Below are positions 1,062-57,988 of a stretch of 64,000 nt of DNA, piece after piece; the first letter of the stretch is position 1; the number at the start of each line of letters is the position of its first letter. The notes beneath the pieces are model-generated. The model was not told where the DNA came from. It saw only the letters and a program-made list of their open reading frames with translations, and did not search any database. The DNA lies in NCBI GenBank assembly GCA_027574665.1, contig CM050657.1, positions 30,875,408-30,939,407 on the forward strand, given 5' to 3'. The DNA comes from Rhynochetos jubatus. Lineage: Eukaryota; Chordata; Aves; Eurypygiformes; Rhynochetidae. The position numbers and the translations under genes are program-made.

Positions 1062-1096
1062 CCCGGGGATACAGAGCTCTGTCTTAAGAGGCATGC
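1062..1096. repeat. Cluster of four perfect palindromes in C tail, reference copy
   Basis: Within 35 bases lie CCCGGG (1062-1067), the 12-base palindrome ACAGAGCTCTGT (1071-1082), CTTAAG (1083-1088) and GCATGC (1091-1096). The cluster recurs once per unit. Units with ggatccag instead of ggatacag lose the outer pair of the 12-base palindrome. Most short units have cccggtgat and lose CCCGGG. The last three palindromes are nearly invariant across the window. Confidence 0.8.
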
Positions 1097-29391: not shown

Positions 29392-29392
29392 T
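29392..29392 (+). other. Isolated 1-bp insertion making a 473-bp unit
   Basis: The inserted T in ggggtatacag is the same as in the two 473-bp higher-order repeat families. This unit, however, has gtagctctttccc, not the gtagccctttccc that accompanies the insertion elsewhere. The two markers have been separated by recombination or gene conversion here. The spacing from the previous insertion is 2,361 bp, five units plus one base. Confidence 0.8.
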
Positions 29393-32300: not shown

Positions 32301-35300
32301 CTCTTTCCCTTTTGGAGGAAAAGGGAGAGGTCTGTTTCTAAGCTTTGCAAGCGGTCCCGCGCTCTGCCGAAAAGGGAACGAACTGCTAGAGCACAGCGAG
32401 AGAAAACAGCGTAAGCAATTCCTTCCTAGCTCTTTCTGTTGCCGAGGAACTGTGGCACTGTTGGAACTGGAGATTGCAAGCAACACAGCGATCCGGCTGC
32501 TCTGGCACGCAGTGCTCTGCAAAGGCGCAGCAAGAAGGGACAAGAAATTCTCTCCTAACTCTTTCTCTTTGGTCGCATTACAGTGCTGCTTTAGATGTCC
32601 TTGTTCAGGCAGACGCTTCAACGAGCCGCGCATTCCAGCCTCTCCGAGCCTGTTAGCACAGAGAAGGTGACCCTGTGGATTTCGACTTTCCCGGGGATAC
32701 AGAGCTCTGTCTTAAGAGGCATGCAGTGCTCTGCCAAAACAAACAAGGTTTCCCTAAGAAATTCTCTCGTAGCTCTTTCCCTTTTGGAGGAAAAGGGAGA
32801 GGTTTGTTTCTAAGCTTTGCAAGCAGTCCCGCGCTCTGCCGAAAAGGGAACGAACTGCTAGAGCACAGCGAGAGAAAACAGCGTAAGCAATTCCTTCCTA
32901 GCTCTTTCTGTTGCCGAGGAACTGTGGCACTGTTGGAACTGGAGATTGCAAGCAACACAGCGATCCGGCTGCTCTGGCACGCAGTGCTCTGCAAAGGCGC
33001 AGCAAGAAGGGACAAGAAATTCTCTCCTAACTCTTTCTGTTTGGTCGCATTACAGTGCTGCTTCAGATGTCCGTGTTCGGGCAGACGCTTCAACGAGCCG
33101 CGCATTCGAGCCTCTCGGAGCCTGTTAGCACAGAGAAGGTGACCCTGTGGATTTCGACTTTCCCGGGGATACAGAGCTCTGTCTTAAGAGGCATGCAGTG
33201 CTCTGCCAAAACAAACAAGGTTTCCCTAAGAAATTCCCTCGTAGCTCTTTCCCTTTTGGAGGAAAAGGGAGAGGTCTGTTTCTAAGCTTTGCAAGCGGTC
33301 CCGCGCTCTGCCGAGAAGGGAACGAACTGCTAGAGCACAGCGAGAGAAAACAGCGTAAGCAATTCCTTCCTAGCTCTTTCTGTTGCCGAGGAACTGTGGC
33401 ACTGTTGGAACTGGAGATTGCAAGCAACACAGCGGTCCGGCTGCTCTGGCACGCAGTGCTCTGCAAAGGCGCAGCAAGAAGGGACAAGAAATTCTCTCCT
33501 AACTCTTTCTGTTTGGTCGCATTACAGTGCTGCTTTAGATGTCCGTGTTCGGGCAGACGCTTCAACGAGCCGCGCATTCCAGCCTCTCCGAGCCTGTTAG
33601 CACAGAGAAGGTGACCCTGTGGATTTCGACTTTCCCGGGGATACAGAGCTCTGTCTTAAGAGGCATGCAGTGCTCTGCCAAAACAAACAAGGTTTCGCTA
33701 AGAAATTCCCTCGTAGCTCTTTCCCTTTTGGAGGAAAAGGGAGAGGTTTGTTTCTAAGCTTTGCAAGCGGTCCCGCGCTCTGCCGAAAAGGGAACGAACT
33801 GCTAGAGCACAGCGAGAGAAAACAGCGTAAGCAATTCCTTCCTAGCTCTTTCTGTTGCCGAGGAACTGTGGCACTGTTGGAACTGGAGATTGCAAGCAAC
33901 ACAGCGATCCGGCTACTCTGGCACGCAGTGCTCTGCAAAGGCGCAGCAAGAAGGGACAAGAAATTCTCTCCTAACTCTTTCTGTTTGGTCGCATTACAGT
34001 GCTGCTTCAGATGTCCGTGTTCGGGCAGACGCTTCAACGAGGCGCGCATTCGAGCCTCTACGAGTCTGGTAGCACAGAGAAGGTGACCCTGTGGATTTCG
34101 ACTTTCCCGGGGATACAGAGCTCTGTCTTAAGAGGCATGCAGTGCTCTGCCAAAACAAACAAGGTTTCCCTAAGAAATTCTCTCGCAGCGCTTTCCCTTT
34201 TGGAGGAAAAGGGAGAGGTTTGGTTCTAAGCTTTGCACGCGGTCCCGCGCTCTGCCGAAAAGGGAACGAACTGCTAGAGCACAGCGAGAGAAAACAGCGT
34301 AAGCAATTCCTTCCTAGCTCTTTCTGTTGCCGAGGAACTGTGGCACTGTTGGAACTGGAGATTGCAAGCAACACAGCGATCCGGCTGCTCTGGCACGCAG
34401 TGCTCTGCAAAGGCGCAGCAAGAAGGGACAAGAAATTCTCTCCTAACTCTTTCTGTTTGGTCGCATTACAGTGCTGCTTCAGATGTCCGTGTTCGGGCAG
34501 ACGCTTCAACGAGCCGCGCATTCGAGCCTCTCGGAGCCTGTTAGCACAGAGAAGGTGACCCTGTGGATTTCGACTTTCCCGGGGATACAGAGCTCTGTCT
34601 TAAGAGGCATGCAGTGCTCTGCCAAAACAAACAAGGTTTCCCTAAGAAATTCCCTCGTAGCTCTTTCCCTTTTGGAGGAAAAGGGAGAGGTCTGTTTCTA
34701 AGCTTTGCAAGCGGTCCCGCGCTCTGCCGAGAAGGGAACGAACTGCTAGAGCACAGCGAGAGAAAACAGCGTAAGCAATTCCTTCCTAGCTCTTTCTGTT
34801 GCCGAGGAACTGTGGCACTGTTGGAACTGGAGATTGCAAGCAACACAGCGGTCCGGCTGCTCTGGCACGCAGTGCTCTGCAAAGGCGCAGCAAGAAGGGA
34901 CAAGAAATTCTCTCCTAACTCTTTCTGTTTGGTCGCATTACAGTGCTGCTTTAGATGTCCGTGTTCGGGCAGACGCTTCAACGAGCCGCGCATTCCAGCC
35001 TCTCGGAGCCTGTTAGCACAGAGAAGGTGACCCTGTGGATTTCGACTTTCCCGGGGATAGAGAGCTCTGTCTTAAGAGGCATGCAGTGCTCTGCCAAAAC
35101 AAACAAGGTTTCGCTAAGAAATTCCCTCGTAGCTCTTTCCCTTTTGGAGGAAAAGGGAGAGGTTTGTTTCTAAGCTTTGCAAGCGGTCCCGCGCTCTGCC
35201 GAAAAGGGAACGAACTGCTAGAGCACAGCGAGAGAAAAGAGCGTAAGCAATTCCTTCCTAGCTCTTTCTGTTGCCGAGGAACTGTGGCACTGTTGGAACT

Positions 35301-37002
35301 GGAGATTGCAAGCAACACAGCGGTCCGGCTGCTCTGGCACGCAGTGCTCTGCAAAGGCGCAGCAAGAAGGGACAAGAAATTCTCTCCTAACTCTTTCTGT
35401 TTGGTCGCATTACAGTGCTGCTTTAGATGTCCGTGTTCGGGCAGACGCTTCAACGAGCCGCGCATTCCAGCCTCTCGGAGCCTGTTAGCACAGAGAAGGT
35501 GACCCTGTGGATTTCGACTTTCCCAGGGATACAGAGCTCTGTCTTAAGAGGCATGCAGTGCTCTGCCAAAACAAACAAGGTTTCACTAAGAAATTCTCTC
35601 GCAGCTCTTTCCCTTTTGGAGGAAAAGGGAGAGGTTTGTTTCTAAGCTTTGCAAGCGGTCCCGCGCTCTGCCGAAAAGGGAACGAACTGCTAGAGCACAG
35701 CGAGAGAAAACAGCGTAAGCAATTCCTTCCTAGCTCTTTCTGTTGCCGAGGAACTGTGGCACTGTTGGAACTGGAGATTGCAAGCAACACAGCGATGCGG
35801 CTGCTCTGGCACGCAGTGCTCTGCAAAGGCGCAGCAAGAAGGGACAAGAAATTCTCTCCTAACTCTTTCTGTTTGGTCGCATTACAGTGCTGCTTCAGAT
35901 GTCCGTGTTCGGGCAGACGCTTCAACGAGCCGCGCATTCGAGCCTCTCGGAGCCTGTTAGCACAGAGAAGGTGACCCTGTGGATTTCGACTTTCCCGGGG
36001 ATACAGAGCTCTGTCTTAAGAGGCATGCAGTGCTCTGCCAAAAGAAACAAGGTTTCCCTAAGAAATTCCCTCGTAGCTCTTTCCCTTTTGGAGGAAAAGG
36101 GAGAGGTTTGTTTCTAAGCTTTGCAAGCGGTCCCACGCTCTGCCGAAAAGGGAACGAACTGCTAGAGCACAGCGAGAGAAAACAGCGTAAGCAATTCCTT
36201 CCTAGCTCTTTCTGTTGCCGAGGAACTGTGGCACTGTTGGAACTGGAGATTGCAAGCAACACAGCGCTCCGGCTGCTCTGGCACGCAGTGCTCTGCAAAG
36301 GCGCAGCAAGAAGGGACAAGAAATTCTCTCCTAACTCTTTCTGTTTGGTCGCATTACAGTGCTGCTTCAGATGTCCGTGTTCGGGCAGACGCTTCAACGA
36401 GCCGCGCATTCGAGCCTCTCCGAGCCTGTTAGCACAGAGAAGGAGTCCCTGTGGATTTCGACTTTCCCGGGGATACAGAGCTCTGTCTTAAGAGGCATGC
36501 AGTGCTCTGCCAAAACAAACAAGGTTTCCCTAAGAAATTCTCTCGTAGCTCTTTCCCTTTTGGAGGAAAAGGGAGAGGTTTGTTTCTAAGCTTTGCAAGC
36601 GGTCCCGCGCTCTGCCGAAAAGGGAACGAACTGCTAGAGCACAGCGAGAGAAAACAGCCTAAGCAATTCCTTCCTAGCTCTTTCTGTTGCCGAGGAACTG
36701 TGGCACTGTTGGAACTGGAGATTGCAAGCAACACAGCGATCCGGCTACTCTGGCACGCAGTGCTCTGCAAAGGCGCAGCAAGAAGGGACAAGAAATTCTC
36801 TCCTAACTCTTTCTGTTTGGTCGCATTACAGTGCTGCTTCAGATGTCCGTGTTCGGGCAGACGCTTCAACGAGGCGCGCATTCGAGCCTCTACGAGTCTG
36901 GTAGCACAGAGAAGGTGTCCCTCTGGATTTCGACTTTCCCGGGGATACAGAGCTCTGTCTTAAGAGGCATGCAGTGCTCTGCCAAAACAAACAAGGTTTC
37001 CC

Positions 37003-37274
37003 TAAGAAATTCTCTCGTAGCTCTTTCCCTTTTGGAGGAAAAGGGAGAGGTTTGTTTCTAAGCTTTGCAAGCGGTCCCGCGCTCTGCCGAAAAGGGAACG
37101 AACTGCTAGAGCACAGCGAGAGAAAACAGCGCAAGCAATTCCTTCCTAGCTGTTTGTGTTTTGTCCTAGTCTGTTTGAACCACAAGGTGTCCCTCTGGAT
37201 TTCGACTTTCCCGGGGATACAGAGCTCTGTCTTAAGAGGCATGCAGTGCTCTGCCAAAACAAACAAGGTTTCAC
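37003..37274 (+). repeat. Short unit 1 (272 bp, A+D)
   Basis: First short unit, marking the left edge of the mosaic. A occupies 37003-37131 and D 37132-37274. Its D has gtgtccctctggatttcgac and keeps cccgggg, so it is closer to the 472-bp units than most other short units. Confidence 0.92.
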
Positions 37275-37546
37275 TAAGAAATTCTCTCGTAGGTCTTTCC
37301 GATTGGGAGGAAAAGGGAGAGGTTTGTTTCTAAGCTTTGCAAGCAGTCCCGCATTCTGCCAAAAAGGGAACGAACTGCTAGAGCACAGCGAGAGAAAACA
37401 GCGTAAGCAATTCCTTCCTAGCTTTCTGTGTTTTGTCCTAGTCTGTTTGAACCACAAGGTGTCGCTCTAGATTTAGAATTTCCCGGTGATCCAGAGCTCT
37501 GTCTTAAGAGGCATGCAGTGCTCTGCCAAAACAAACAAGGTTTCCC
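37275..37546 (+). repeat. Short unit 2 (272 bp, A+D)
   Basis: D has the diverged form gtcgctctagatttagaat and cccggtgatcc. A has tttccgattggg, which removes the left hairpin arm. It directly follows short unit 1, so two dimers are in tandem. Confidence 0.92.
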
Positions 37547-38018
37547 TAAGAAATTCCCTCGTAGCTCTTTCCCTTTTGGAGGAAAAGGGAGAGGTTTGTA
37601 TCTAAGCTTTGCAAGCAGTCCCGCGCTCTGCCGAAAAGGGAACGAACTGCTAGAGCACAGCGAGAGAAAACAGCGTAAGCAATTCCTTCCTAGCTCTTTC
37701 TGTTGCCGAGGAACTGTGGCACTGTTGGAACTGGAGATTGCAAGCAACACAGCGATCCGGCTGCTCTGGCACGCAGTGCTCTGCAAAGGCGCAGCAAGAA
37801 GGGACAAGAAATTCTCTCCTAACTCTTTCTGTTTGGTCGCATTACAGTGCTGCTTTAGATGTCCGTGTTCGGGCAGACGCTTCAACGAGCCGCGCATTTG
37901 AGCCTCTCCGAGCCTGTTAGCACAGAGAAGGTGTCCCTCTGGATTTCGACTTTCCCGGTGATCCAGAGCTCTGTCTTAAGAGGCATGCAGTGCTCTGCCA
38001 AAACAAACAAGGTTTCCC

Positions 38019-38290
38019 TAAGAAATTCTCTCGTAGGTCTTTCCGATTGGGAGGAAAAGGGAGAGGTTTGTATCTAAGCTTTGCAAGCGGTCCCGCGCTC
38101 TGCCGAAAAGGGAACGAACTGCTAGAGCACAGCGAGAGAAAACAGCGCAAGCAATTCCTTCCTAGCTCTTTGTGTTTTGTCCTAGTCTGTTTGAACCACA
38201 AGGTGTCCCTCTGGATTTCGACTTTCCCGGGGATCCAGAGCTCTGTCTTAAGAGGCATGCAGTGCTCTGCCAAAACAAACAAGGTTTCAC
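38019..38290 (+). repeat. Short unit 3 (272 bp, A+D)
   Basis: D has gtgtccctctggatttcgac as in short unit 1, with ggggatccag. Units 37275-38018 (272 + 472) separate it from short unit 1, so the 272-272-472 order repeats at 37003 and 38019 with a period of 1,016 bp. Confidence 0.9.
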
Positions 38291-38562
38291 TAAGAAATTC
38301 TCTCGTAGACCTTTCCCTTTTGGAGGAAAAGGGAGAGGTATGTTTCTAAGCTTTGCAAGCAGTCCCGCGCTCTGCCGAAAAGGGAACAAACTGCTAGAGC
38401 ACAGCGAGAGAAAACAGCGCAAGCAATTCCATCGTAGCTTTTTGTATTTTGTCCTAGTCTGTTTGAACCACAAGGTGTCGCTCTAGATTTAGAATTTCCC
38501 AGTGATCCAGAGCTCTGTCTTAAGAGGCATGGAGTGCTCTGCCAAAACAAACAAGGTTTCCC
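38291..38562 (+). repeat. Short unit 4 (272 bp, A+D)
   Basis: D has ttccatcgtagctttttgta and the gtcgctctagatttagaat form, with cccagtgatcc. GCATGC is altered to gcatgg here, a rare loss of that palindrome. Confidence 0.9.
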
Positions 38563-39034
38563 TAAGAAATTCTCTCCTAGCTCTTTCCCTTTTGGAGGAA
38601 AAGGGAGAGGTTTGTTTCTAAGCTTTGCAAGCGGTCCCGCGCTCTGCCGAAAAGGGAACGAACTGCTAGAGCACAGCGAGAGAAAACAGCGTAAGCAATT
38701 CCTTCCTAGCCCTTTCTGTTGCCGAGGAACTGTGGCACTGTTGGAACTGGAGATTGCAAGCAACACAGCGATCCGGCTGCTCTGGCACGCAGTGCTCTGC
38801 AAAGGCGCAGCAAGAAGGGACAAGAAATTCTCTCCTAACTCTTTCTGTTTGGTGGCATTACAGTGCTGCTTTAGATGTCCGTGTTCGGGCAGACGCTTCA
38901 ACGAGCCGCGCATTCAAGCCTCTACGAGTCTGGTAGCACAGAGAAGGTGACCCTGTGGATTTCGACTTTCCCGGTGATCCAGAGCTCTGTCTTAAGAGGC
39001 ATGCAGTGCTCTGCCAAAACAAACAAGGTTTCAC

Positions 39035-39302
39035 TCAGAAATTCTCTCGTAGCTCTTTCCGATTGGGAGGAAAAGGGAGAGGTTTGTATCTAAGCTTTGC
39101 AAGCAGTCCCGCGGTCTGCCGAAAAGGGAACGAACTGCTAGAGCACAGCGAGAGAAAACAGCGCAAGCAATTCCATCGTAGCTTTTTGTATTTTGTCCTA
39201 GTCTGTTTGAACCACAAGGTGTCGCTCTAGATTCAGACTTTCCTGGTGATCCAGAGCTCTGTCTTAAGAGGCATGCAGTGCTCTGCCAAAACAATGTTTC
39301 AC
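39035..39302 (+). repeat. Short unit 5 (268 bp, A+D)
   Basis: First of the 268-bp class: aaaacaatgtttcactccg replaces aaaacaaacaaggtttc, a net loss of four bases. Unlike the other 268-bp units it has agattcagactttcctggt. The D head has ttccatcgtagc, as in short unit 4. Confidence 0.9.
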
Positions 39303-41190
39303 TCCGAAATTCTCTCGTAGCTCTTTCCCTTTTGGAGGAAAAGGGAGAGGTCTGTTTCTAAGCTTTGCAAGCGGTCCCGCGCTCTGCCGAAAAGGGAACG
39401 AACTGCTAGAGCACAGCGAGAGAAAACAGCGTAAGCAATTCCTTCCTAGCTCTTTCTGTTGCCGAGGAACTGTGGCACTGTTGGAACTGGAGATTGCAAG
39501 CAACACAGCGATCCGGCTGCTCTGGCACGCAGTGCTCTGCAAAGGCGCAGCAAGAAGGGACAAGAAATTCTCTCCTAACTCTTTCTGTTTGGTCGCATTA
39601 CAGTGCTGCTTTAGATGTCCGTGTTCGGGCAGATGCTTCAACGAGCCGCGCATTCGAGCCTCTCCGAGCCTGTTAGCACAGAGAAGGTGACCCTGTGGAT
39701 TTCGACTTTCCCGGGGATACAGAGCTCTGTCTTAAGAGGCATGCAGTGCTCTGCCAAAACAAACAAGGTTTCACTAAGAAATTCTCTCGTAGCTCTTTCC
39801 CTTTTGGAGGAAAAGGGAGAGCTTTGTTTCTAAGCTTTGCAAGCGGTCCCGCGCTCTGCCGAAAAGGGAACGAACTGCTAGAGCACAGCGAGAGAAAACA
39901 GCCTAAGCAAGTCCTTCCTAGCTCTTTCTGTTGCCGAGGAACTGTGGCACTGTTGGAACTGGAGATTGCAAGCAACACAGCGATCCGGCTGCTCTGGCAC
40001 GCAGTGCTCTGCAAAGGCGCAGCAAGAAGGGACAAGAAATTCTCTCCTAACTCTTTCTGTTTGGTCGCATTACAGTGCTGCTTTAGATGTCCGTGTTCGG
40101 GCAGACGCTTCAACGAGCCGCGCATTCGAGCCTCTCCGAGCCTGTTAGCACAGAGAAGGTGACTCTGTGGATTTCGACTTTCCCGGGGATACAGAGCTCT
40201 GTCTTAAGAGGCATGCAGTGCTCTGCCAAAACAAACAAGGTTTCCCTAAGAAATTCTCTCGTAGCTCTTTCCCTTTTGGAGGAAAAGGGAGAGGTTTGTT
40301 TCTAAGCTTTGCAAGCGGTCCCGCGCTCTGCCGAAAAGGGAACGAACTGCTAGAGCACAGCGAGAGAAAACAGCGTAAGCAAGTCCTTCCTAGCTCTTTC
40401 TGTTGCCGAGGAACTGTGGCACTGTTGGAACTGGAGATTGCAAGCAACACAGCGATCCGGCTGCTCTGGCACGCAGTGCTCTGCAAAGGCGCAGCAAGAA
40501 GGGACAAGAAATTCTCTCCTAACTCTTTCTGTTTGGTCGCATTACAGTGCTGCTTTAGATGTCCGTGTTCGGGCAGACGCTTCAACGAGCCGCGCATTCG
40601 AGCCTCTCCGAGCCTGTTAGCACAGAGAAGGTGTCCCCCTGCATTTCGACTTTCCCGGGGATCCAGAGCTCTGTCTTAAGAGGCATGCAGTGCTCTGCCA
40701 AAACAAACAAGGTTTCCCTAAGAAATTCTCTCCTAGCTCTTTCCCTTTTGGAGGAAAAGGGAGAGGTTTGTTTCTAAGCTTTGCAAGCGGTCCCGCGCTC
40801 TGCTGAAAAGGGAACGAACTGCTAGAGCACAGCGAGAGAAAAGAGTGCAAGCAATTCCTTCCTAGCTCTTTCTGTTGCCGAGGAACTGTGGCACTGTTGG
40901 AACTGGAGATTGCAAGCAACACAGCGCTCCGGCTGCTCTGGCACGCAGTGCTCTGCAAAGGCGCAGCAAGAAGGGACAAGAAATTCTCTCCTAACTCTTT
41001 CTGTTTGGTCGCATTACAGTGCTGCTTCAGATGGCCGTGTTCGGGCAGACGCTTCAACGAGCCGCGCATTCGAGCCTCTCCGAGCCTGTTAGCACAGAGA
41101 AGGTGACCCTGTGGATTTCGACTTTCCCGGGGATACAGAGCTCTGTCTTAAGAGGCATGCAGTGCTCTGCCAAAACAAACAAGGTTTCGC

Positions 41191-41462
41191 TAAGAAATTC
41201 CCTCGTAGCTCTTTCCCTTTTGGAGGAAAAGGGAGAGGTTTGTTTCTAAGCTTTGCAAGCGGTCCCGCGCTCTGCCGAAAAGGGAACGAACTGCTAGAGC
41301 ACAGCGAGAGAAATCAGCGTAAGCAATTCCTTCCTAGCTTTTTGTGTTTTGTCCTAGTCTGTTTGAACCACAAGGTGTCGCTCTAGATTTAGAATTTCCC
41401 GGTGTTCCAGAGCTCCGTCTTAAGAGGCATGCAGTGCTCTGCCAAAACAAACAAGGTTTCCC
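41191..41462 (+). repeat. Short unit 6 (272 bp, A+D)
   Basis: First unit of the later 272-bp subclass, recognised by tagaatttcccggtgttcc and agctccgtc. It is followed directly by a 268-bp unit. Its A is of the common domain-1 type, so A and D differ in apparent age. Confidence 0.92.
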
Positions 41463-41730
41463 TAAGAAATTCTCTCGTAGCTCTTTCCGATTGGTAGGAA
41501 AAGGGAGAGGTTTGTTTGTAAGCTTTGCAAGCAGTCCCGCGTTCTGTCAAAAAGGGAACGAACTGCTAGAGCACAGCGAGAGAAAACAGCGCAAGCAATT
41601 CCTTCCTAGCTCTTTGTGTTTTGTCCTAGTCTGTTTGAACCACAAGGTGTCGCTCTAGATTTAGACTTTCCCGGTGATCCAGAGCTCTGTCTTAAGAGGC
41701 ATGCAGTGCTCTGCCAAAACAATGTTTCAC
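41463..41730 (+). repeat. Short unit 7 (268 bp, A+D)
   Basis: 268-bp subclass with tagactttcccggtgatcc and acaatgtttcactccg. A has ttccgattggtagg, gtttgtttgtaag and gttctgtcaaaaag, private to this pairing. Confidence 0.92.
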
Positions 41731-42202
41731 TCCGAAATTCTCCCGTAGCTCTTTCCGCTTGGGAGGAAAAGGGAGAGGTTTGTTTCTAAGCTTTGCCAGC
41801 AGTCCCGCGCTCTGCCGAGGAGGGAACGAGCTGCTAGAGCACAGCGAGAGAAAACAGTGCAAGCAATTCCTTCCTAGCTCTTTCTGTTGCCGAGGAACTG
41901 TGGCACTGTTGGAACTGGAGATTGCAAGCAACACAGCGATCCGGCTGCTCTGGCACGCAGTGCTCTGCAAAGGCGCAGCAAGAAGGGACAAGAAATTCTC
42001 TCCTAACTCTTTCTGTTTGGTCGCATTACAGTGCTGCTTCAGATGTCCGTGTTCGGGCAGACGCTTCAACGAGCCGCGCATTCCAGCCTCTCCGAGCCTG
42101 TTAGCACAGAGAAGGTGACCCTGTGGATTTCGACTTTCCCGGGGATACAGAGCTCTGTCTTAAGAGGCATGCAGTGCTCTGCCAAAAGAAACAAGTTTTC
42201 CC

Positions 42203-42474
42203 TAAGAAATTCTCTCCTAGCTCTTTCCCTTTTGGAGGAAAAGGGAGAGGTTTGTTTCTAAGCTTTGCAAGCGGTCCCGCGCTCTGCCGAAAAGGGAACG
42301 AACTGCTAGAGCACAGCGAGAGAAAAGAGCGCAAGCAATTCCTTCCTAGCTTTTTGTGTTTTGTCCTAGTCTGTTTGAACCACAAGGTGTCGCTCTAGAT
42401 TTAGAATTTCCCGGTGTTCCAGAGCTCCGTCTTAAGAGGCATGCAGTGCTCTGCCAAAACAAACAAAGTTTCAC
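42203..42474 (+). repeat. Short unit 8 (272 bp, A+D)
   Basis: Same subclass as short unit 6 (cccggtgttcc, agctccgtc), followed by a 268-bp unit. Belongs to copy 1 of the 2,696-bp higher-order repeat. Confidence 0.92.
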
Positions 42475-42742
42475 TCAGAAATTCTCTCGTAGCTCTTTCC
42501 GATTGGTAGGAAAAGGGAGAGGTTTGTTTGTAAGCTTTGCAAGCAGTCCCGCGTTCTGTCAAAAAGGGAACGAACTGCTAGAGCACAGCGAGAGAAAACA
42601 GCGTAAGCAATTCCTTCCTAGCTCTTTGTGTTTTGTCCTAGTCTGTTTGAACCACAAGGTGTCGCTCTAGATTTAGACTTTCCCGGTGATCCAGAGCTCT
42701 GTCTTAAGAGGCATGCAGTGCTCTGCCAAAACAATGTTTCAC
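42475..42742 (+). repeat. Short unit 9 (268 bp, A+D)
   Basis: Same subclass as short unit 7, in copy 1 of the 2,696-bp higher-order repeat. It starts with tcagaaattc after aaagtttcac. Confidence 0.92.
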
Positions 42743-44158
42743 TCCGAAATTCTCCCGTAGCTCTTTCCGCTTGGGAGGAAAAGGGAGAGGTTTGTTTCTA
42801 AGCTTTGCCAGCAGTCCCGCGCTCTGCCGAGGAGGGAACGAGCTGCTAGAGCACAGCGAGAGAAAACAGTGCAAGCAATTCCTTCCTAGCTCTTTCTGTT
42901 TCCGAGGAACTGTGGCACTGTTGGAACTGGAGATTGCAAGCAACACAGCGATCCGGCTGCTCTGGCACGCAGTGCTCTGCAAAGGCGCAGCAAGAAGGGA
43001 CAAGAAATTCTCTCCTAACTCTTTCTGTTTGGTCGCATTGCAGTGCTGCTTCAGATGTCCGTGTTCGGGCAGACGCTTCAACGAGCCGCGCATTCCAGCC
43101 TCTCCGAGCCTGTTAGCACAGAGAAGGTGACCCTGTGGATTTCGACTTTCCCGGGGATACAGAGCTCTGTCTTAAGAGGCATGCAGTGCTCTGCCAAAAC
43201 AAACAAGGTTTCACTAAGAAATTCTCTCGTAGCTCTTTCCCTTTTGGAGGAAAAGGGAGAGGTTTGTTTCTAAGCTTTGCATGCAGTCCCGCACTCTGCC
43301 GAAAAGGGAACGAACTGCTAGAGCACAGCGAGAGAAAAGAGCGTAAGCAATTCCTTCCTAGCTCTTTCTGTTGCCGAGGAACTGTGGCACTGTTGGAACT
43401 GGAGATTGCAAGCAACACAGCGATCCGGCTGCTCTGGCACGCAGTGCTCTGCAAAGGCGCAGCAAGAAGGGACAAGAAATTCTCTCCTAACTCTTTCTGT
43501 TTGGTCGCATTACAGTGCTGCTTTAGATGTCCGTGTTCGGGCAGACGCTTCAACGAGCCGCGCATTTGAGCCTCTCCGAGCCTGTTAGCACAGAGAAGGT
43601 GACCCTGTGGATTTCGACTTTCCCGGGGATACAGAGCTCTGTCTTAAGAGGCATGCAGTGCTCTGCCAAAACAAACATGGTTTCCCTAAGAAATTCTCTC
43701 GTAGCTCTTTCCCTTTTGGAGGAAAAGGGAGAGGTCTGTTTCTAAGCTTTGCAAGCGGTCCCACGCTCTGCCGAAAAGGGAACGAACTGCTAGAGCACAG
43801 CGAGAGAAAACAGCGTAAGCAATTCCTTCCTAGCTCTTTCTGTTGCCGAGGAACTGTGGCACTGTTGGAACTGGAGATTGCAAGCAACACAGCGATCCGG
43901 CTGCTCTGGCACGCAGTGCTCTGCAAAGGCGCAGCAAGAAGGGACAAGAAATTCTCTCCTAACTCTTTCTGTTTGGTCGCATTACAGTGCTGCTTTAGAT
44001 GTCCGTGTTCGGGCAGACGCTTCAACGAGCCGCGCATTCGAGCCTCTCCGAGCCTGTTAGCACAGAGAAGGTGTCCCCCTGCATTTCGACTTTCCCGGGG
44101 ATCCAGAGCTCTGTCTTAAGAGGCATGCAGTGCTCTGCCAAAACAAACAAGGTTTCAC

Positions 44159-44426
44159 TAAGAAATTCTCTCGTAGCTCTTTCCGATTGGTAGGAAAAGG
44201 GAGAGGTTTGTTTGTAAGCTTTGCAAGCAGTCCCGCGGTCTGCCGAAAAGGGAACGAACTGCTAGAGCACAGCGAGAGAAAACAGCGCAAGCAATTCCTT
44301 CCTAGCTCTTTGTGTTTTGTCCTAGTCTGTTTGAACCACAAGGTGTCGCTCTAGATTTAGACTTTCCCGGTGATCCAGAGCTCTGTCTTAAGAGGCATGC
44401 AGTGCTCTGCCAAAACAATGTTTCAC
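44159..44426 (+). repeat. Short unit 10 (268 bp, A+D)
   Basis: A solitary 268-bp unit, not preceded by a 272-bp unit, which closes copy 1 of the 2,696-bp higher-order repeat. It has cgcggtctgccg in A. Confidence 0.92.
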
Positions 44427-44898
44427 TCCGAAATTCTCCCGTAGCTCTTTCCGCTTGGGAGGAAAAGGGAGAGGTTTGTTTCTAAGCTTTGCCAGCAGTC
44501 CCGCGCTCTGCCGAGGAGGGAACGAGCTGCTAGAGCACAGCGAGAGAAAAGAGCGTAAGCAATTCCTTCCTAGCTCTTTCTGTTGCCGAGGAACTGTGGC
44601 ACTGTTGGAACTGGAGATTGCAAGCAACACAGCGATCCGGCTGCTCTGGCACGCAGTGCTCTGCAAAGGCGCAGCAAGAAGGGACAAGAAATTCTCTCCT
44701 AACTCTTTCTGTTTGGTCGCATTACAGTGCTGCTTCAGATGTCCGTGTTCGGGCAGACGCTTCAACGAGCCGCGCATTCGAGCCTCTCCGAGCCTGTTAG
44801 CACAGAGAAGGTGACCCTGTGGATTTCGACTTTCCCGGGGATACAGAGCTCTGTCTTAAGAGGCATGCAGTGCTCTGCCAAAACAAACAAGTTTTCCC

Positions 44899-45170
44899 TA
44901 AGAAATTCTCTCCTAGCTCTTTCCCTTTTGGAGGAAAAGGGAGAGGTTTGTTTCTAAGCTTTGCAAGCGGTCCCGCGCTCTGCCGAAAAGGGAACGAACT
45001 GCTAGAGCACAGCGAGAGAAAAGAGCGCAAGCAATTCCTTCCTAGCTTTTTGTGTTTTGTCCTAGTCTGTTTGAACCACAAGGTGTCGCTCTAGATTTAG
45101 AATTTCCCGGTGTTCCAGAGCTCCGTCTTAAGAGGCATGCAGTGCTCTGCCAAAACAAACAAAGTTTCAC
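44899..45170 (+). repeat. Short unit 11 (272 bp, A+D)
   Basis: Counterpart of short unit 8 at +2,696 bp, with the same cccggtgttcc and agctccgtc markers. Confidence 0.92.
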
Positions 45171-45438
45171 TCAGAAATTCTCTCGTAGCTCTTTCCGATT
45201 GGTAGGAAAAGGGAGAGGTTTGTTTGTAAGCTTTGCAAGCAGTCCCGCGTTCTGTCAAAAAGGGAACGAACTGCTAGATCACAGCGAGAGAAAACAGCGT
45301 AAGCAATTCCTTCCTAGCTCTTTGTGTTTTGTCCTAGTCTGTTTGAACCACAAGGTGTCGCTCTAGATTTAGACTTTCCCGGTGATCCAGAGCTCTGTCT
45401 TAAGAGGCATGCAGTGCTCTGCCAAAACAATGTTTCAC
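45171..45438 (+). repeat. Short unit 12 (268 bp, A+D)
   Basis: Counterpart of short unit 9 at +2,696 bp. It carries ctagatcacagcg in place of ctagagcacagcg, a private change. Confidence 0.92.
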
Positions 45439-46854
45439 TCCGAAATTCTCCCGTAGCTCTTTCCGCTTGGGAGGAAAAGGGAGAGGTTTGTTTCTAAGCT
45501 TTGCCAGCAGTCCCGCGCTCTGCCGAGGAGGGAACGAGCTGCTAGAGCACAGCGAGAGAAAACAGTGCAAGCAATTCCTTCCTAGCTCTTTCTGTTGCCG
45601 AGGAACTGTGGCACTGTTGGAACTGGAGATTGCAAGCAACACAGCGATCCGGCTGCTCTGGCACGCAGTGCTCTGCAAAGGCGCAGCAAGAAGGGACAAG
45701 AAATTCTCTCCTAACTCTTTCTGTTTGGTCGCATTACAGTGCTGCTTCAGATGTCCGTGTTCGGGCAGACGCTTCAACGAGCCGCGCATTCCAGCCTCTC
45801 CGAGCCTGTTAGCACAGAGAAGGTGACCCTGTGGATTTCGACTTTCCCGGGGATACAGAGCTCTGTCTTAAGAGGCATGCAGTGCTCTGCCAAAACAAAC
45901 AAGGTTTCACTAAGAAATTCTCTCGTAGCTCTTTCCCTTTTGGAGGAAAAGGGAGAGGTTTGTTTCTAAGCTTTGCATGCAGTCCCGCGCTCTGCCGAAA
46001 AGGGAACGAACTGCTAGAGCACAGCGAGAGAAAAGAGCGTAAGCAATTCCTTCCTAGCTCTTTCTGTTGCCGAGGAACTGTGGCACTGTTGGAACTGGAG
46101 ATTGCAAGCAACACAGCGATCCAGCTGCTCTGGCACGCAGTGCTCTGCAAAGGCGCAGCAAGAAGGGACAAGAAATTCTCTCCTAACTCTTTCTGTTTGG
46201 TCGCATTACAGTGCTGCTTTAGATGTCCGTGTTCGGGCAGACGCTTCAACGAGCCGCGCATTCGAGCCTCTCCGAGCCTGTTAGCACAGAGAAGGTGACC
46301 CTGTGGATTTCGACTTTCCCGGGGATACAGAGCTCTGTCTTAAGAGGCATGCAGTGCTCTGCCAAAACAAACATGGTTTCCCTAAGAAATTCTCTCGTAG
46401 CTCTTTCCCTTTTGGAGGAAAAGGGAGAGGTCTGTTTCTAAGCTTTGCAAGCGGTCCCACGCTCTGCCGAAAAGGGAACGAACTGCTAGAGCACAGCGAG
46501 AGAAAACAGCGTAAGCAATTCCTTCCTAGCTCTTTCTGTTGCCGAGGAACTGTGGCACTGTTGGAACTGGAGATTGCAAGCAACACAGCGATCCGGCTGC
46601 TCTGGCACGCAGTGCTCTGCAAAGGCGCAGCAAGAAGGGACAAGAAATTCTCTCCTAACTCTTTCTGTTTGGTCGCATTACAGTGCTGCTTTAGATGTCC
46701 GTGTTCGGGCAGACGCTTCAACGAGCCGCGCATTCGAGCCTCTCCGAGCCTGTTAGCACAGAGAAGGTGACCCTGTGGATTTCGACTTTCCCGGGGATCC
46801 AGAGCTCTGTCTTAAGAGGCATGCAGTGCTCTGCCAAAACAAACAAGGTTTCAC

Positions 46855-47122
46855 TAAGAAATTCTCTCGTAGCTCTTTCCGATTGGTAGGAAAAGGGAGA
46901 GGTTTGTTTGTAAGCTTTGCAAGCAGTCCCGCGGTCTGCCGAAAAGGGAACGAACTGCTAGAGCACAGCGAGAGAAAACAGCGCAAGCAATTCCTTCCTA
47001 GCTCTTTGTGTTTTGTCCTAGTCTGTTTGAACCACAAGGTGTCGCTCTAGATTTAGACTTTCCCGGTGATCCAGAGCTCTGTCTTAAGAGGCATGCAGTG
47101 CTCTGCCAAAACAATGTTTCAC
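46855..47122 (+). repeat. Short unit 13 (268 bp, A+D)
   Basis: Counterpart of short unit 10 at +2,696 bp, closing copy 2 of the higher-order repeat, with the same cgcggtctgccg. Confidence 0.92.
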
Positions 47123-48066
47123 TCCGAAATTCTCCCGTAGCTCTTTCCGCTTGGGAGGAAAAGGGAGAGGTTTGTTTCTAAGCTTTGCCAGCAGTCCCGC
47201 GCTGTGCCGAGGAGGGAACGAGCTGCTAGAGCACAGCGAGAGAAAACAGTGCAAGCAATTCCTTCCTAGCTCTTTCTGTTGCCGAGGAACTGTGGCACTG
47301 TTGGAACTGGAGATTGCAAGCAACACAGCGATCCGGCTGCTCTGGCACGCAGTGCTCTGCAAAGGCGCAGCAAGAAGGGACAAGAAATTCTCTCCTAACT
47401 CTTTCTGTTTGGTCGCATTACAGTGCTGCTTTAGATGTCCGTGTTCGGGCAGACGCTTCAACGAGCCGCGCATTCGAGCCTCTCCGAGCCTGTTAGCACA
47501 GAGAAGGTGTCCCCCTGCATTTCGACTTTCCCGGGGATACAGAGCTCTGTCTTAAGAGGCATGCAGTGCTCTGCCAAAACAAACAAGGTTTCCCTAAGAA
47601 ATTCTCTCCTAGCTCTTTCCCTTTTGGAGGAAAAGGGAGAGGTTTGTTTCTAAGCTTTGCAAGCGGTCCCGCGCTCTGCCGAAAAGGGAACGAACTGCTA
47701 GAGCACAGCGAGAGAAAACAGCGCAAGCAATTCCTTCCTAGCTCTTTCTGTTGCCGAGGAACTGTGGCACTGTTGGAACTGGAGATTGCAAGCAACACAG
47801 CGATCCGGCTGCTCTGGCACGCAGTGCTCTGCAAAGGCGCAGCAAGAAGGGACAAGAAATTCTCTCCTAACTCTTTCTGTTTGGTCGCATTACAGTGCTG
47901 CTTTAGATGTCCGTGTTCGGGCAGACGCTTCAACGAGCCGCGCATTCGAGCCTCTCCGAGCCTGTTAGCACAGAGAAGGTGACCCTGTGGATTTCGACTT
48001 TCCCGGGGATCCAGAGCTCTGTCTTAAGAGGCATGCAGTGCTCTGCCAAAACAAACAAGCTTTCCC

Positions 48067-48338
48067 TAAGAAATTCCCTCGTAGCTCTTTCCCTTTTGGA
48101 GGAAAAGGGAGAGGTTTGTTTCTAAGCTTTGCAAGCGGTCCCGCGCTCTGCCGAAAAGGGAACGAACTGCTAGAGCACAGCGAGAGAAAACAGCGCAAGC
48201 AATTCCTTCCTAGCTTTTTGTGTTTTGTCCTAGTCTGTTTGAACCAGAAGGTGTCGCTCTAGATTTAGAATTTCCCGGTGTTCCAGAGCTCCGTCTTAAG
48301 AGGCATGCAGTGCTCTGCCAAAACAAACAAAGTTTCAC
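48067..48338 (+). repeat. Short unit 14 (272 bp, A+D)
   Basis: 272-bp subclass with cccggtgttcc. It has gaaccagaagg where the other short units have gaaccacaagg. Confidence 0.92.
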
Positions 48339-48606
48339 TCAGAAATTCTCTCGTAGCTCTTTCCGATTGGTAGGAAAAGGGAGAGGTTTGTTTGTAAGCT
48401 TTGCAAGCAGTCCCGCGTTCTGTCAAAAAGGGAACGAACTGCTAGAGCACAGCGAGAGAAAACAGCGCAAGCAATTCCTTCCTAGCTCTTTGTGTTTTGT
48501 CCTAGTCTGTTTGAACCACAAGGTGTCGCTCTAGATTTAGACTTTCCCGGTGATCCAGAGCTCTGTCTTAAGAGGCATGCAGTGCTCTGCCAAAACAATG
48601 TTTCAC
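48339..48606 (+). repeat. Short unit 15 (268 bp, A+D), last of the mosaic
   Basis: 268-bp subclass paired with short unit 14. No further short unit occurs to the right. The next full unit (48607-49078) still has the left-arm change tttccgcttggg. Confidence 0.92.
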
Positions 48607-51422
48607 TCCGAAATTCTCCCGTAGCTCTTTCCGCTTGGGAGGAAAAGGGAGAGGTTTGTTTCTAAGCTTTGCCAGCAGTCCCGCGCTCTGCCGAAAAGGG
48701 AACGAACTGCTAGAGCACAGCGAGAGAAAACAGCGTAAACAATTCCTTCCTAGCTCTTTCTGTTGCCGAGGAACTGTGGCACTGTTGGAACTGGAGATTG
48801 CAAGCAACTCAGCGATCCGGCTGCTCTGGCACGCAGTGCTCTGCAAAGGCGCAGCAAGAAGGGACAAGAAATACTCTCCTAACTCTTTCTGTTTGGTCGC
48901 ATTGCAGCGCTGCTTCAGATGGCCGTGTTCGGGCAGACGCTTCAACGAGCCGCGCATTCCAGCCTCTCCGAGCCTGTTAGCACAGAGAAGGTGACCCTGT
49001 GGATTTCGACTTTCCCGGGGATACAGAGCTCTGTCTTAAGAGGCATGCAGTGCTCTGCCAAAACAAACAAGGTTTCACTAAGAAATTCTCTCGTAGCTCT
49101 TTCCCTTTTGGAGGAAAAGGGAGAGGTTTGTTTCTAAGCTTTGCAAGCGGTCCCGCGCTCTGCCGAAAAGGGAACGAACTGCTAGAGCACAGCGAGAGAA
49201 AACAGCGTAAGCAAGTCCTTCCTAGCTCTTTCTGTTGCCGAGGAACTGTGGCACTGTTGGAACTGGAGATTGCAAGCAACACAGCGATCCGGCTGCTCTG
49301 GCACGCAGTGCTCTGCAAAGGCGCAGCAAGAAGGGACAAGAAATTCTCTCCTAACTCTTTCTGTTTGGTCGCATTACAGTGCTGCTTTAGATGTCCGTGT
49401 TCGGGCAGACTCTTCAACGAGCCGCGCATTCGAGCCTCTCCGAGCCTGTTAGCACAGAGAAGGTGACCCTGTGGATTTCGACTTTCCCGGGGATACAGAG
49501 CTCTGTCTTAAGAGGCATGCAGTGCTCTGCCAAAACAAACAAGGTTTCACTAAGAAATTCCCTCGTAGCTCTTTCCCTTTTGGAGGAAAAGGGAGAGGTT
49601 TGTTTCTAAGCTTTGCAAGCGGTCCCGCGCTCTGCCGAAAAGGGAACGAACTGCTAGAGCACAGCGAGAGAAAAGAGCGTAAGCAATTCCTTCCTAGCTC
49701 TTTCTGTTGCCGAGGAACTGTGGCACTGTTGGAACTGGAGACTGCAAGCAACAAAGCGGTCCGGCTGCTCTGGCACGCAGTGCTCTGCAAAGGCGCAGCA
49801 AGAAGGGACAAGAAATTCTCTCCTAACTCTTTCTGTTTGGTCGCATTACAGTGCTGCTTCAGATGTCCGTGTTCGGGCAGACGCTTCAACGAGCCGCGCA
49901 TTCCAGCCTCTCCGAGCCTGTTAGCACAGAGAAGGTGACCCTGTGGATTTCGACTTTCCCGGGGATACAGAGCTCTGTCTTAAGAGGCATGCAGTGCTCT
50001 GCCAAAACAAACAAGGTTTCCCTAAGAAATTCTCTCGTAGCTCTTTCCCTTTTGGAGGAAAAGGGAGAGGTTTGTTTCTAAGCTTTGCAAGCGGTCCCGC
50101 GCTCTGCCGAAAAGGGAACGAACTGCTAGAGCACAGCGAGAGAAAAGAGCGTAAGCAATTCCTTCCTAGCTCTTTCTGTTGCCGAGGAACTGTGGCACTG
50201 TTGGAACTGGAGATTGCAAGCAACACAGCGATCCGGCTGCTCTGGCACGCAGTGCTCTGCAAAGGCGCAGCAAGAAGGGACAAGAAATTCTCTCCTAACT
50301 CTTTCTGTTTGGTCGCATTACAGTGCTGCTTCAGATGTCCGTGTTCGGGCAGACGCTTCAACGAGCCGCGCATTCGAGCCTCTCCGAGCCTGTTAGCACA
50401 GAGAAGGTGACCCTGTGGATTTCGACTTTCCCGGGGATACAGAGCTCTGTCTTAAGAGGCATGCAGTGCTCTGCCAAAACAAACAAGGTTTCCCTAAGAA
50501 ATTCCCTCGTAGCTCTTTCCCTTTTGGAGGAAAATGGAGAGGTTTGTTTCTAAGCTTTGCAAGCGGTCCCGCGCTCTGCCGAAAAGGGAACGAACTGCTA
50601 GAGCACAGCGAGAGAAAAGAGCGTAAGCAATTCCTTCCTAGCTCTTTCTGTTGCCGAGGAACTGTGGCACTGTTGGAACTGGAGATTGCAAGCAACACAG
50701 CGATCCGGCTGCTCTGGCACGCAGTGCTCTGCAAAGGCGCAGCAAGAAGGGACAAGAAATTCTCTCCTAACTCTTTCTGTTTGGTCGCATTACAGTGCTG
50801 CTTCAGATGTCCGTGTTCGGGCAGACGCTTCAACGAGCCGCGCATTCCAGCCTCTCCGAGCCTGTTAGCACAGAGAAGGTGACCCTGTGGATTTCGACTT
50901 TCCCGGGGATACAGAGCTCTGTCTTAAGAGGCATGCAGTGCTCTGCCAAAACAAACAAGGTTTCGCTAAGAAATTCTCTCGCAGCTCTTTCCCTTTTGGA
51001 GGAAAAGGGAGAGGTTTGTTTCTAAGCTTTGCAAGCGGTCCCGCGCTCTGCCGAAAAGGGAACGAACTGCTAGAGCACAGCGAGAGAAAACAGCGTAAGC
51101 AATTCCTTCCTAGCTCTTTCTGTTGCCGAGGAACTGTGGCACTGTTGGAACTGGAGATTGCAAGCAACACAGCGATCCGGCTGCTCTGGCACGCAGTGCT
51201 CTGCAAAGGCGCAGCAAGAAGGGACAAGAAATTCTCTCCTAACTCTTTCTGTTTGGTCGCATTACAGTGCTGCTTTAGATGTCCGTGTTCGGGCAGACGC
51301 TTAAACGAGCCGCGCATTCCAGACTCTCCGAGCCTGTTAGCACAGAGAAGGTGACCCTGTGGATTTCGACTTTCCCGGGGATACAGAGCTCTGTCTTAAG
51401 AGGCATGCAGTGCTCTGCCAAA

Positions 51423-54254
51423 ACAAACAAGGTTTCGCTAAGAAATTCCCTCGTAGCTCTTTCCCTTTTGGAGGAAAAGGGAGAGGTTTGTTTCTAAGCT
51501 TTGCAAGCGGTCCCGCGCTCTGCCGAAAAGGGAACGAACTGCTAGAGCACAGCGAGAGAAAACAGCGTAAGCAATTCCTTCCTAGCTCTTTCTGTTGCCG
51601 AGGAACTGTGGCACTGTTGGAACTGGAGACTGCAAGCAACACAGCGATCCGGCTGCTCTGGCACGCAGTGCTCTGCAAAGGCGCAGCAAGAAGGGACAAG
51701 AAATTCTCTCCTAACTCTTTCTGTTTGGTCGCATTACAGTGCTGCTTCAGATGTCCGTGTTCGGGCAGACGCTTCAACGAGCCGCGCATTCCAGCCTCTC
51801 CGAGCCTGTTAGCACAGAGAAGGTGACCCTGTGGATTTCGACTTTCCCGGGGATCCAGAGCTCTGTCTTAAGAGGCATGCAGTGCTCTGCCAAAACAAAC
51901 AAGGTTTCCCTAAGAAATTCTCTCCTAGCTCTTTCCCTTTTGGAGGAAAAGGGAGAGGTTTGTTTCTAAGCTTTGCAAGCGGTCCCGCGCTCTGCCGAAA
52001 AGGGAACGAACTGCTAGAGCACAGCGAGAGAAAAGAGCGTAAGCAATTCCTTCCTAGCTCTTTCTGTTGCCGAGGAACTGTGGCACTGTTGGAACTGGAG
52101 ATTGCAAGCAACACAGCGATCCGGCTGCTCTGGCACGCAGTGCTCTGCAAAGGCGCAGCAAGAAGGGACAAGAAATTCTCTCCTAACTCTTTCTGTTTGG
52201 TCGCATTACAGTGCTGCTTCAGATGTCCGTGTTCGGGCAGACGCTTCAACGAGCCGCGCATTCCAGCCTCTCCGAGCCTGTTAGCACAGAGAAGGTGACC
52301 CTGTGGATTTCGACTTTCCCGGGGATACAGAGCTCTGTCTTAAGAGGCATGCAGTGCTCTGCCAAAACAAACAAGGTTTCCCTAAGAAATTCTCTCGTAG
52401 CTCTTTCCCTTTTGGAGGAAAAGGGAGAGGTTTGTTTCTAAGCTTTGCAAGCGGTCCCGCGCTCTGCCGAAAAGGGAACGAACTGCTAGAGCACAGCGAG
52501 AGAAAAGAGCGTAAGCAATTCCTTCCTAGCTCTTTCTGTTGCCGAGGAACTGTGGCACTGTTGGAACTGGAGATTGCAAGCAACACAGCGATCCGGCTGC
52601 TCTGGCACGCAGTGCTCTGCAAAGGCGCAGCAAGAAGGGACAAGAAATTCTCTCCTAACTCTTTCTGTTTGGTCGCATTACAGTGCTGCTTCAGATGTCC
52701 GTGTTCGGGCAGACGCTTCAACGAGCCACGCATTCCAGCCTCTCCGAGCCTGTTAGCACAGAGAAGGTGACCCTGTGGATTTCGACTTTCCCGGGGATAC
52801 AGAGCTCTGTCTTAAGAGGCATGCAGTGCTCTGCCAAAACAAACAAGGTTTCCCTAAGAAATTCTCTCGTAGCTCTTCCCCTTTTGGAGGAAAAGGGAGA
52901 GGTTTGTTTCTAAGCTTTGCAAGCGGTCCCGCGCTCTGCCGAAAAGGGAACGAACTGCTAGAGCACAGCGAGAGAAAAGAGCGTAAGCAATTCCTTCCTA
53001 GCTCTTTCTGTTGCCGAGGAACTGTGGCACTGTTGGAACTGGAGATTGCAAGCAACACAGCGATCCGGCTGCTCTGGCACGCAGTGCTCTGCAAAGGCGC
53101 AGCAAGAAGGGACAAGAAATTCTCTCCTAACTCTTTCTGTTTGGTCGCATTACAGTGCTGCTTCAGATGTCCGTGTTCGGGCAGACGCTTCAGCGAGCCG
53201 CGCATTCGAGCCTCTCCGAGCCTGTTAGCACAGAGAAGGTGACCCTGTGGATTTCGACTTTCCCGGGGATACAGAGCTCTGTCTTAAGAGGCATGCAGTG
53301 CTCTGCCAAAACAAACAAGGTTTCCCTAAGAAATTCTCTCGTAGCTCTTCCCCTTTTGGAGGAAAAGGGAGAGGTTTGTTTCTAAGCTTTGCAAGCGGTC
53401 CCGCGCTCTGCCGAAAAGGGAACGAACTGCTAGAGCACAGCGAGAGAAAACAGCGTAAGCAATTCCTTCCTAGCTCTTTCTGTTGCCGAGGAACTGTGGC
53501 ACTGTTGGAACTGGAGATTGCAAGCAACACAGCGATCCGGCTGCTCTGGCACGCAGTGCTCTGCAAAGGCGCAGCAAGAAGGGACAAGAAATTCTCTCCT
53601 AACTCTTTCTGTTTGGTCGCATTACAGTGCTGCTTTAGATGTCCGTGTTCGGGCAGACGCTTCAACGAGCCGCGCATTCCAGACTCTCCGAGCCTGTTAG
53701 CACAGAGAAGGTGACCCTGTGGATTTCGACTTTCCCGGGGATACAGAGCTCTGTCTTAAGAGGCATGCAGTGCTCTGCCAAAACAAACAAGGTTTCGCTA
53801 AGAAATTCCCTCGTAGCTCTTTCCCTTTTGGAGGAAAAGGGAGAGGTTTGTTTCTAAGCTTTGCAAGCGGTCCCGCGCTCTGCCGAAAAGGGAACGAACT
53901 GCTAGAGCACAGCGAGAGAAAACAGCGTAAGCAATTCCTTCCTAGCTCTTTCTGTTGCCGAGGAACTGTGGCACTGTTGGAACTGGAGACTGCAAGCAAC
54001 ACAGCGATCCGGCTGCTCTGGCACGCAGTGCTCTGCAAAGGCGCAGCAAGAAGGGACAAGAAATTCTCTCCTAACTCTTTCTGTTTGGTCGCATTACAGT
54101 GCTGCTTCAGATGTCCGTGTTCGGGCAGACGCTTCAACGAGCCGCGCATTCCAGCCTCTCCGAGCCTGTTAGCACAGAGAAGGTGACCCTGTGGATTTCG
54201 ACTTTCCCGGGGATCCAGAGCTCTGTCTTAAGAGGCATGCAGTGCTCTGCCAAA
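51423..54254 (+). repeat. Local five-unit duplication in domain 4
   Basis: The succession ccagactctcc (near 51322 and 53682), then gagactgcaagcaacacagcgatcc, then ggggatccag (near 51851 and 54211) recurs at 2,360 bp, exactly five units. The second copy lacks the cttaaacgagc variant that the first shares with 19871. Limits are approximate. Confidence 0.7.
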
Positions 54255-57200: not shown

Positions 57201-57988
57201 AACTGCTAGAGCACAGCGAGAGAAAAGAGCGTAAGCAATTCCTTCCTAGCTCTTTCTGTTGCCGAGGAACTGTGGCACTGTTGGAACTGGAGATTGCAAG
57301 CAACACAGCGATCCGGCTGCTCTGGCACGCAGTGCTCTGCAAAGGCGCAGCAAGAAGGGACAAGAAATTCTCTCCTAACTCTTTCTGTTTGGTCGCATTA
57401 CAGTGCTGCTTCAGATGTCCGTGTTCGGGCAGACGCTTCAACGAGCCGCGCATTCGAGCCTCTGCGAGCCTGTTAGCACAGAGAAGGTGACCCTGTGGAT
57501 TTCGACTTTCCCGGGGATACAGAGCTCTGTCTTAAGAGGCATGCAGTGCTCTGCCAAAACAAACAAGGTTTCGCTAAGAAATTCTCTCGCAGCTCTTTCC
57601 CTTTTGGAGGAAAAGGGAGAGGTTTGTTTCTAAGCTTTGCAAGCGGTCCCGCGCTCTGCCGAAAAGGGAACGAACTGCTAGAGCACAGCGAGAGAAAACA
57701 GCGTAAGCAATTCCTTCCTAGCTCTTTCTGTTGCCGAGGAACTGTGGCACTGTTGGAACTGGAGATTGCAAGCAACACAGCGATCCGGCTGCTCTGGCAC
57801 GCAGTGCTCTGCAAAGGCGCAGCAAGGAGGGACAAGAAATTCTCTCCTAACTCTTTCTGTTTGGTGGCATTACAGTGCTGCTTCAGATGTCCGTGTTCGG
57901 GCAGACGCTTCAACGAGCCACGCATTCCAGCCTCTCCGAGCCTGTTAGCACAGAGAAGGTGACCCTGTGGATTTCGACTTTCCCGGGG

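Follow-up and report, generated by a model that had tools for sequence, protein, structure and literature searches.

How two unit lengths of one satellite come to stand intermingled in a single array, and which of them came first, is the question raised by a stretch of 64,000 bp of the Rhynochetos jubatus genome (the window; C12:30875408-30939407, in an assembly of 1,331,379,947 bases on 148 contigs). The 64-kb window is a single satellite array throughout, and in one block of it long units of 472 bp stand among short units of 272 or 268 bp. Both the linkage of single-base variants to unit length and the divergence between the two forms run in gradients along the 249-bp block that short and long units share. 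The reading that we consider rather probable, although some way from certain, is that the short unit is a single old length allele, which arose by loss from a longer unit, has continued to exchange sequence with long units, and is accompanied by mixed junctions that have spread.

Cut at the recurring CTGTT, the long unit resolves into three monomers and a linker (A129+B129+C129+X85) and the short unit into A128+B129+X'15, by hand count on the consensus; the monomers are 54% (A-B), 63% (A-C) and 54% (B-C) identical. Positions 1-249 of the short unit match 1-249 of the long unit at 94.8% identity, and positions ~250-452 of the long unit are missing from it, which agrees with the first-pass annotation in its description of a head joined directly to a tail. 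The same hand count equates the 200-bp difference in length with one 129-bp monomer and about 70 bp of linker, as had likewise been proposed. Over a stretch of 17 bases the short tail agrees with the long tail at 14, a score reached in 0 of 500 shuffles. Every monomer ends in the near-identical motif CTCTTT(C)TGTT, a single junction type is common to the 15 short units of the window, and the 25 commonest short-junction types listed carry a nearly identical 15-bp linker. An origin of X' by one deletion (the B/C start plus the last 10 bp of X) fits about as well as an origin in two parts (X 1-10 plus X 81-85), again by hand counts on the consensuses. Linker X itself (long-unit positions 374-458) has no match to the monomers when the unit is compared with itself by BLAST; it begins with CTGTT, and another CTGTT comes right after it, which could be the trace of an insertion.

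Tiled from 37006 (the phase of the first-pass annotation, with the start moved by 3 bp), the block comprises 32 units, 17 of 472 bp, 8 of 272 bp and 7 of 268 bp, so that the seventeen long and fifteen short units originally counted are recovered; in this phase the 268-bp units bear a 4-bp deletion. The order of types is SSLSSLSLLLLSSLSSLLLSLSSLLLSLLSSLL, and its 18 runs, against a shuffled mean of 17.3, correspond to a random order and not to the alternation that had been described. The whole window yields 142 A anchors, 127 C-monomer anchors and 15 short-unit tails, with all 15 tails within 37003-49078, and outside the block its units are all of the 472-bp type (471-474 bp long). The earlier remark that short units occur nowhere else in the window is therefore accurate but misleading, since 2,511 places in the genome match a 24-base short-unit tag (up to 3 mismatches, both strands, many contigs), compared with 0 forward matches and 1 reverse match for a reversed control pattern for the short-unit tail. 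A 27-base C-monomer tag of the long unit has 66,253 matches; arithmetic from the tag counts gives a long:short ratio of ~26:1 and ~31 Mb of long units in the genome, where the satellite lies on at least 10 of the 148 contigs (C1, C2, C4, C5, C7, C8, C12, C13, C21 and C32).

The gradients were measured in stretches of C12 and in stretches of C4, C5, C7, C8, C13 and C32 that had been picked for holding short-unit tags, so that the short fraction of the latter is not representative. In 236 units of mixed zones, variants at sites 7-36 are linked to the type of the previous unit (V 0.33-0.79) and little to that of their own unit (V 0.03-0.21), whereas at sites 221-245 the linkage is with the unit's own type (V 0.50-0.98) and no longer with the previous one (V 0.04-0.05). 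Across 19 sites in 178 deduplicated units, position is correlated with V for the previous type at a Spearman coefficient of -0.66 (p 0.002) and with V for the unit's own type at +0.72 (p 0.0006), the 95% permutation limits for V in this set being 0.13-0.16 and a few sites lying weakly over the limit for the opposite label too. Divergence follows a matching course: in 99 short junctions (97 of them in mixed zones) compared with 139 mixed-zone long junctions, net divergence is 0.049 over the 24 bp that lead up to the junction and 0.085 over the 25 bp that follow it, and amounts to at most 0.006 from ~50 bp upstream on and to 0.001-0.013 from 50 bp downstream on. Against the 172 core junctions included for comparison, absolute divergence (dxy) of the short units reaches 0.184 over the same 25 bp beyond the junction, where nucleotide diversity (pi) of the core is 0.006, and in the windows flanking the junction short units are at least as diverse as long ones. 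A divergence peak at the junction, combined with opposite linkage at the two ends of the shared block, suggests that short and long units behave as two old length alleles which exchange wherever they are homologous.

Exchange has probably also left junctions that travelled. The 4-bp deletion is present in 20 units, 19 of which are long units following a short one (15 on C12, 3 on C13 and 1 on C5), and in the window it marks 7 of the 9 short-to-long transitions. A recombinant junction is thus common to three contigs, and at least one such junction has probably been copied between chromosomes. Within the C12 array, the first part of the mixed block is repeated 42,288 bp downstream at 99.45% identity (2-kb window), compared with 98.3-98.5% in the preceding windows. 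At 31.0126-31.0197 Mb, moreover, a higher-order block of the pattern SLSSL recurs with a period of ~1,760 bp (lag-5 type match 20/23, mean identity 96.8%), a second-order periodicity of unit types that the window's block does not have.

Trees of the junction flanks support, although they do not prove, the view that the short units of the seven sampled contigs are one lineage. In a 263-row tree (99 short, 139 mixed long and 25 of the 172 core units), built without the private sequence and sites 241 and 245, the unit type changes 5 times, compared with 62 in shuffles, and a single short clade is not rejected by the approximately unbiased (AU) test (p 0.546). In a 209-row analysis (99 short, 90 of 139 mixed long, 20 of 172 core) there are 4 label changes near the junction, compared with 30 and 27 in blocks far away. 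The junction trees have few columns and only two well-supported branches each, which in the 209-row tree force a single label change. Short units are clustered by site beyond what chance gives (26 changes vs 45.5 shuffled), yet this clustering is far from complete, and five sets of identical short-unit rows occur at more than one of the 8 sites, C32 accounting for two.

As regards age, 177 core units share 98.5% pairwise identity (3,000 random pairs), while identity within the block is 94.3% among 15 short and 96.2% among 18 long units; judged by this uniformity, the array core is young. Short units hold alleles that are absent from the homogenised long core or at low frequency in it. A yardstick for a young deletion is provided by C21: a genome-wide search for B joined to intact X (up to 2 mismatches) returned two matches, which lie 3,175 bp from each other on C21. 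Each is a 343-bp ABX unit; one of them was measured, and it has 99.1% identity with a core consensus from which exactly one monomer has been removed. This unit is a recent one-monomer loss. With 3 mismatches allowed, four B-then-X-like matches in the sampled loci were considered and set aside, two lying in short units, one at an unclassified end with a short-type tail and one in a normal long unit; the first three all carry C at site 245.

These observations bear unequally on the alternatives. That the short units are recent deletion derivatives of the present 472-bp core would accord with the one junction type shared by all 15 in the window and with the occurrence of such deletions on C21; however, the fresh C21 deletion is core-like and, at up to 2 mismatches, was found only twice, on one contig, whereas short units occur on at least 7 contigs and are separated from a nearly uniform core by the junction divergence given above. 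Recent deletion is consequently very unlikely and strongly disfavoured, and could stand only if the diverged junction had been brought in from a third array by conversion; the 200-bp deletion mentioned in the first-pass annotation is not upheld as a recent event. The signature proposed there for such an origin, short units nested within one 472-bp subfamily and sharing a breakpoint, is half present: the breakpoint is shared, but nesting is contradicted by a junction-flank tree that separates the two forms, by the alleles peculiar to short units and by their diversity. Repeated formation by slippage at the monomer-end repeat is highly improbable; near-identical monomer ends would make in-register exchange easy, and well-supported branches force two label changes in one tree, but the near-constant 15-bp linker and the unrejected single clade speak against it. 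Satellite arrays are difficult to assemble, yet collapse or chimerism as the source of the short units is barely credible in view of the abundance of tag matches on both strands of many contigs and of a linkage graded beyond what any assembler creates.

The direction of the change, by comparison, is not settled. The short A-B-X' dimer may be ancestral, as first proposed, the 472-bp unit having gained C and the 70-bp linker and taken over the array cores, with short units left as relics in less homogenised parts. We regard this as possible but clearly the less probable alternative. It is consistent with the position of the C12 short units (as sampled) in the distal portion of the array, where divergence is higher, with apparently ancestral bases retained at sites 36 and 118, and with a diversity beside the junction at least equal to that of long units. 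Against it, A, B and C are about equally diverged, which makes a late gain of C by duplication within a dimer hardly possible and would require its import; three sites, including 245, appear derived in short units; and short runs comprise at most 4 units, a pure short array not having been seen in the loci sampled. The retained bases and the distal position fit either direction, whereas loss is favoured by the age that the divergence of monomer C implies and by the instance observed on C21, so that an old loss is modestly preferred to an ancestral dimer and the ancestral status of the short form is neither shown nor excluded. A more far-reaching and rather doubtful version would see in the short units what remains of an earlier, dimeric satellite, which occupied the probable centromeres until the trimer replaced it through inter-chromosomal spread, the 200-bp gap acting as a local barrier to exchange; if so, the old lineage would be readable as a divergence peak, and the junction would be a built-in clock of centromere replacement.

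Under the preferred reading of an old loss, the ancestral unit would have been an ABCX-like trimer with linker, from which the short A-B-X' form arose once, by losing C and ~70 bp of X, before the present long core was homogenised. Unequal crossing-over and conversion across the common 249 bp would since have scrambled the order of units, while the private junction, lying outside exchange, would have kept its divergence; ready-made mixed junctions would then have been copied along the array and between chromosomes. We infer crossing-over rather than conversion. Several findings weigh against this account. At sites 162-171 variants remain linked to the previous unit (0.40-0.45), and at some middle sites their linkage to the unit's own type slightly exceeds the permutation limit, which indicates that exchange is not free. 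The private segment of the short unit is only ~28 bp and varies little (pi 0.02 over 23 bp vs 0.036 for the long private segment), a value biased downward by the choice of stretches through tail matches. By hand count, a single 200-bp loss explains the junction about as well as two steps, and no half-way unit of the old type was found in the search for B joined to intact X at up to 2 mismatches, the 343-bp units being core-like. In the 263-row tree the two well-supported branches alone force at least two label changes instead of one, and short and long units share one set of identical rows, whose placement the AU test did not constrain. Finally, polarising the 18 differing sites by paralogous monomers made short units derived at 3 and the long core derived at 2, and left 13 undecided, so that only 5 of 18 could be polarised, with reference monomers only 54-63% alike.

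Features of the window, in the phase that starts at AAGGTG
Feature	Position	Strand	Remark
Pure array of 472-bp type (long, ABCX)	1..36911	+	upstream of block
Short unit (A+B+X')	36912..37183	+	
Short unit	37184..37455	+	
Short unit	37928..38199	+	
Short unit	38200..38471	+	
Short unit	38944..39215	+	
Short unit	41100..41372	+	
Short unit	41373..41643	+	
Short unit	42112..42384	+	
Short unit	42385..42655	+	
Short unit	44068..44339	+	
Short unit	44808..45080	+	
Short unit	45081..45351	+	
Short unit	46764..47035	+	
Short unit	47976..48248	+	
Short unit	48249..48519	+	last of block
4-bp-deletion site, first of seven	39281..39300	+	in long unit after short
4-bp-deletion sites 2-7	starts 41709, 42721, 44405, 45417, 47101, 48585	+	each in long unit after short
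Pure array of 472-bp type	48520..64000	+	downstream of block

Beyond the window, samples of the range place the start of the C12 array between 30.40 and 30.52 Mb and its end at ~31.105 Mb of a contig of 31.63 Mb, the high end of which carries TTAGGG repeats; just inside these lies a 61-bp tandem repeat of 15 copies (L030 8833-9769). No short unit was present among the 101 units of five 10-kb samples taken from 30.635 to 30.875 Mb. Among the matches listed, exact short-unit tags on C12 occupy 30.9126-31.0197 Mb and reappear, outside the window, ~31 kb past the last one of the block; one further short unit, identified via unit length, lies at ~31.10 Mb. C32 (7.18 Mb) has two short-bearing sites 2.3 Mb apart, at 1.65 and 3.97 Mb, with no satellite in a 1.2-kb sample between them at 2.80 Mb, and represents either two arrays or an assembly join. 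The A-to-X direction faces the nearest contig end on C4, C5, C7, C8, C12 and C13 (6/6 contigs among the matches listed), as expected if chromosome ends exchange satellite arrays; the opposite direction is seen at the 3.97-Mb site of C32 and, if the low end is the nearer, in a long array at C2:5.74 Mb.

Within the long unit, TTCGnnnnNnnCGGG occupies positions 17-33 in 98% of 177 core units; the proportion is 15% in 99 units whose predecessor is short and 76% in 54 mixed-zone units whose predecessor is long. The core consensus at these positions differs by one base from the CENP-B core motif, near-matches to which are expected by chance, on our own estimate, ~0.1 times per unit. An inverted repeat with 8-bp arms, TCCCTTTT-GGAGG-AAAAGGGA, at approximately positions 115-135, is exact in 88%, 25% and 61% of the same three classes. 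The fold of the 472-bp consensus as DNA is not above shuffles (z -0.48), and no structure-based function is claimed.

The satellite is probably centromeric, a view that rests on its sequence distribution: among the matches listed, exact C-monomer tags on C1 all fall within 46 kb, and short-bearing sites lie ~0.25-0.85 Mb from contig ends on C4, C5, C7, C8, C12 and C13, in addition to the total of ~31 Mb. Concerted evolution is usually inferred from uniformity; two length alleles coexisting on many contigs offer a direct readout, in which single-base variants are less tightly linked to a structural allele the farther they lie from it, just as in ordinary population genetics, making the reach of exchange within a probable centromere array measurable, while the recent loss of one monomer on C21 supplies a yardstick of age.

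No match was obtained by blastn of 36900-38500 against phage and plasmid sequences, by Rfam over 34000-50000, or by exact-pattern scans of viral contigs and prokaryote genomes, and no description of this 472-bp satellite was found, by title or start of the abstract, in the openly licensed literature searched. Bird centromeric satellites are described, in PMC6435179, with units of 190 bp in duck, 101 and 192 bp in goose and 290 bp in swan, partly CNM-related, on macro- and/or microchromosomes, and homogenisation between chromosomes is proposed there. By description, not by sequence, the present repeat resembles them as a tandem repeat with proposed inter-chromosome homogenisation, with different unit lengths (PMC6435179). 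In itself, it looks like an ordinary satellite of the bird type. A CR1-like sequence elsewhere in the genome (L041) and the sizes of the contigs likewise point to a bird; no cytochrome b was found in the assembly.

The organisation of its units invites a second comparison. Among alpha-satellite higher-order repeats, monomer-deletion variants are shorter forms without whole monomers, interspersed among full units, and the 343-bp unit of C21 is exactly of this type. The 272-bp form, unlike such variants, also lacks the 70-bp linker, has a diverged junction and occurs on many contigs; linker loss and diverged junction together make it look old. The sequence is presumably unrelated to alpha satellite, and the 129-bp monomers, the non-monomer linker and the dominance of one unit on many contigs differ from alpha satellite, whose units in humans are largely chromosome-specific. 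With monomers 54-63% identical and whole units 98.5% identical (177 core), the array nevertheless has the structure of a higher-order repeat, and it shares multimeric units of diverged monomers with alpha satellite as outlined in PMC9859433. That review describes, for human and ape arrays, evolutionary layers with a homogenised interior and a more diverged periphery, driven by unequal crossing-over and conversion (PMC9859433). On C12, relative to a core consensus derived from units of the proximal part (the edge of which is sampled by only 1.2 kb), likeness is 98.8-99.5% at 30.63-30.90 Mb and 98.4-98.8% in distal bins, in both cases where short units are lacking, and 94.9-98.2% for long units in bins with at least 3 short units, a placement of layers that resembles the alpha-satellite picture, here on one side of one array.

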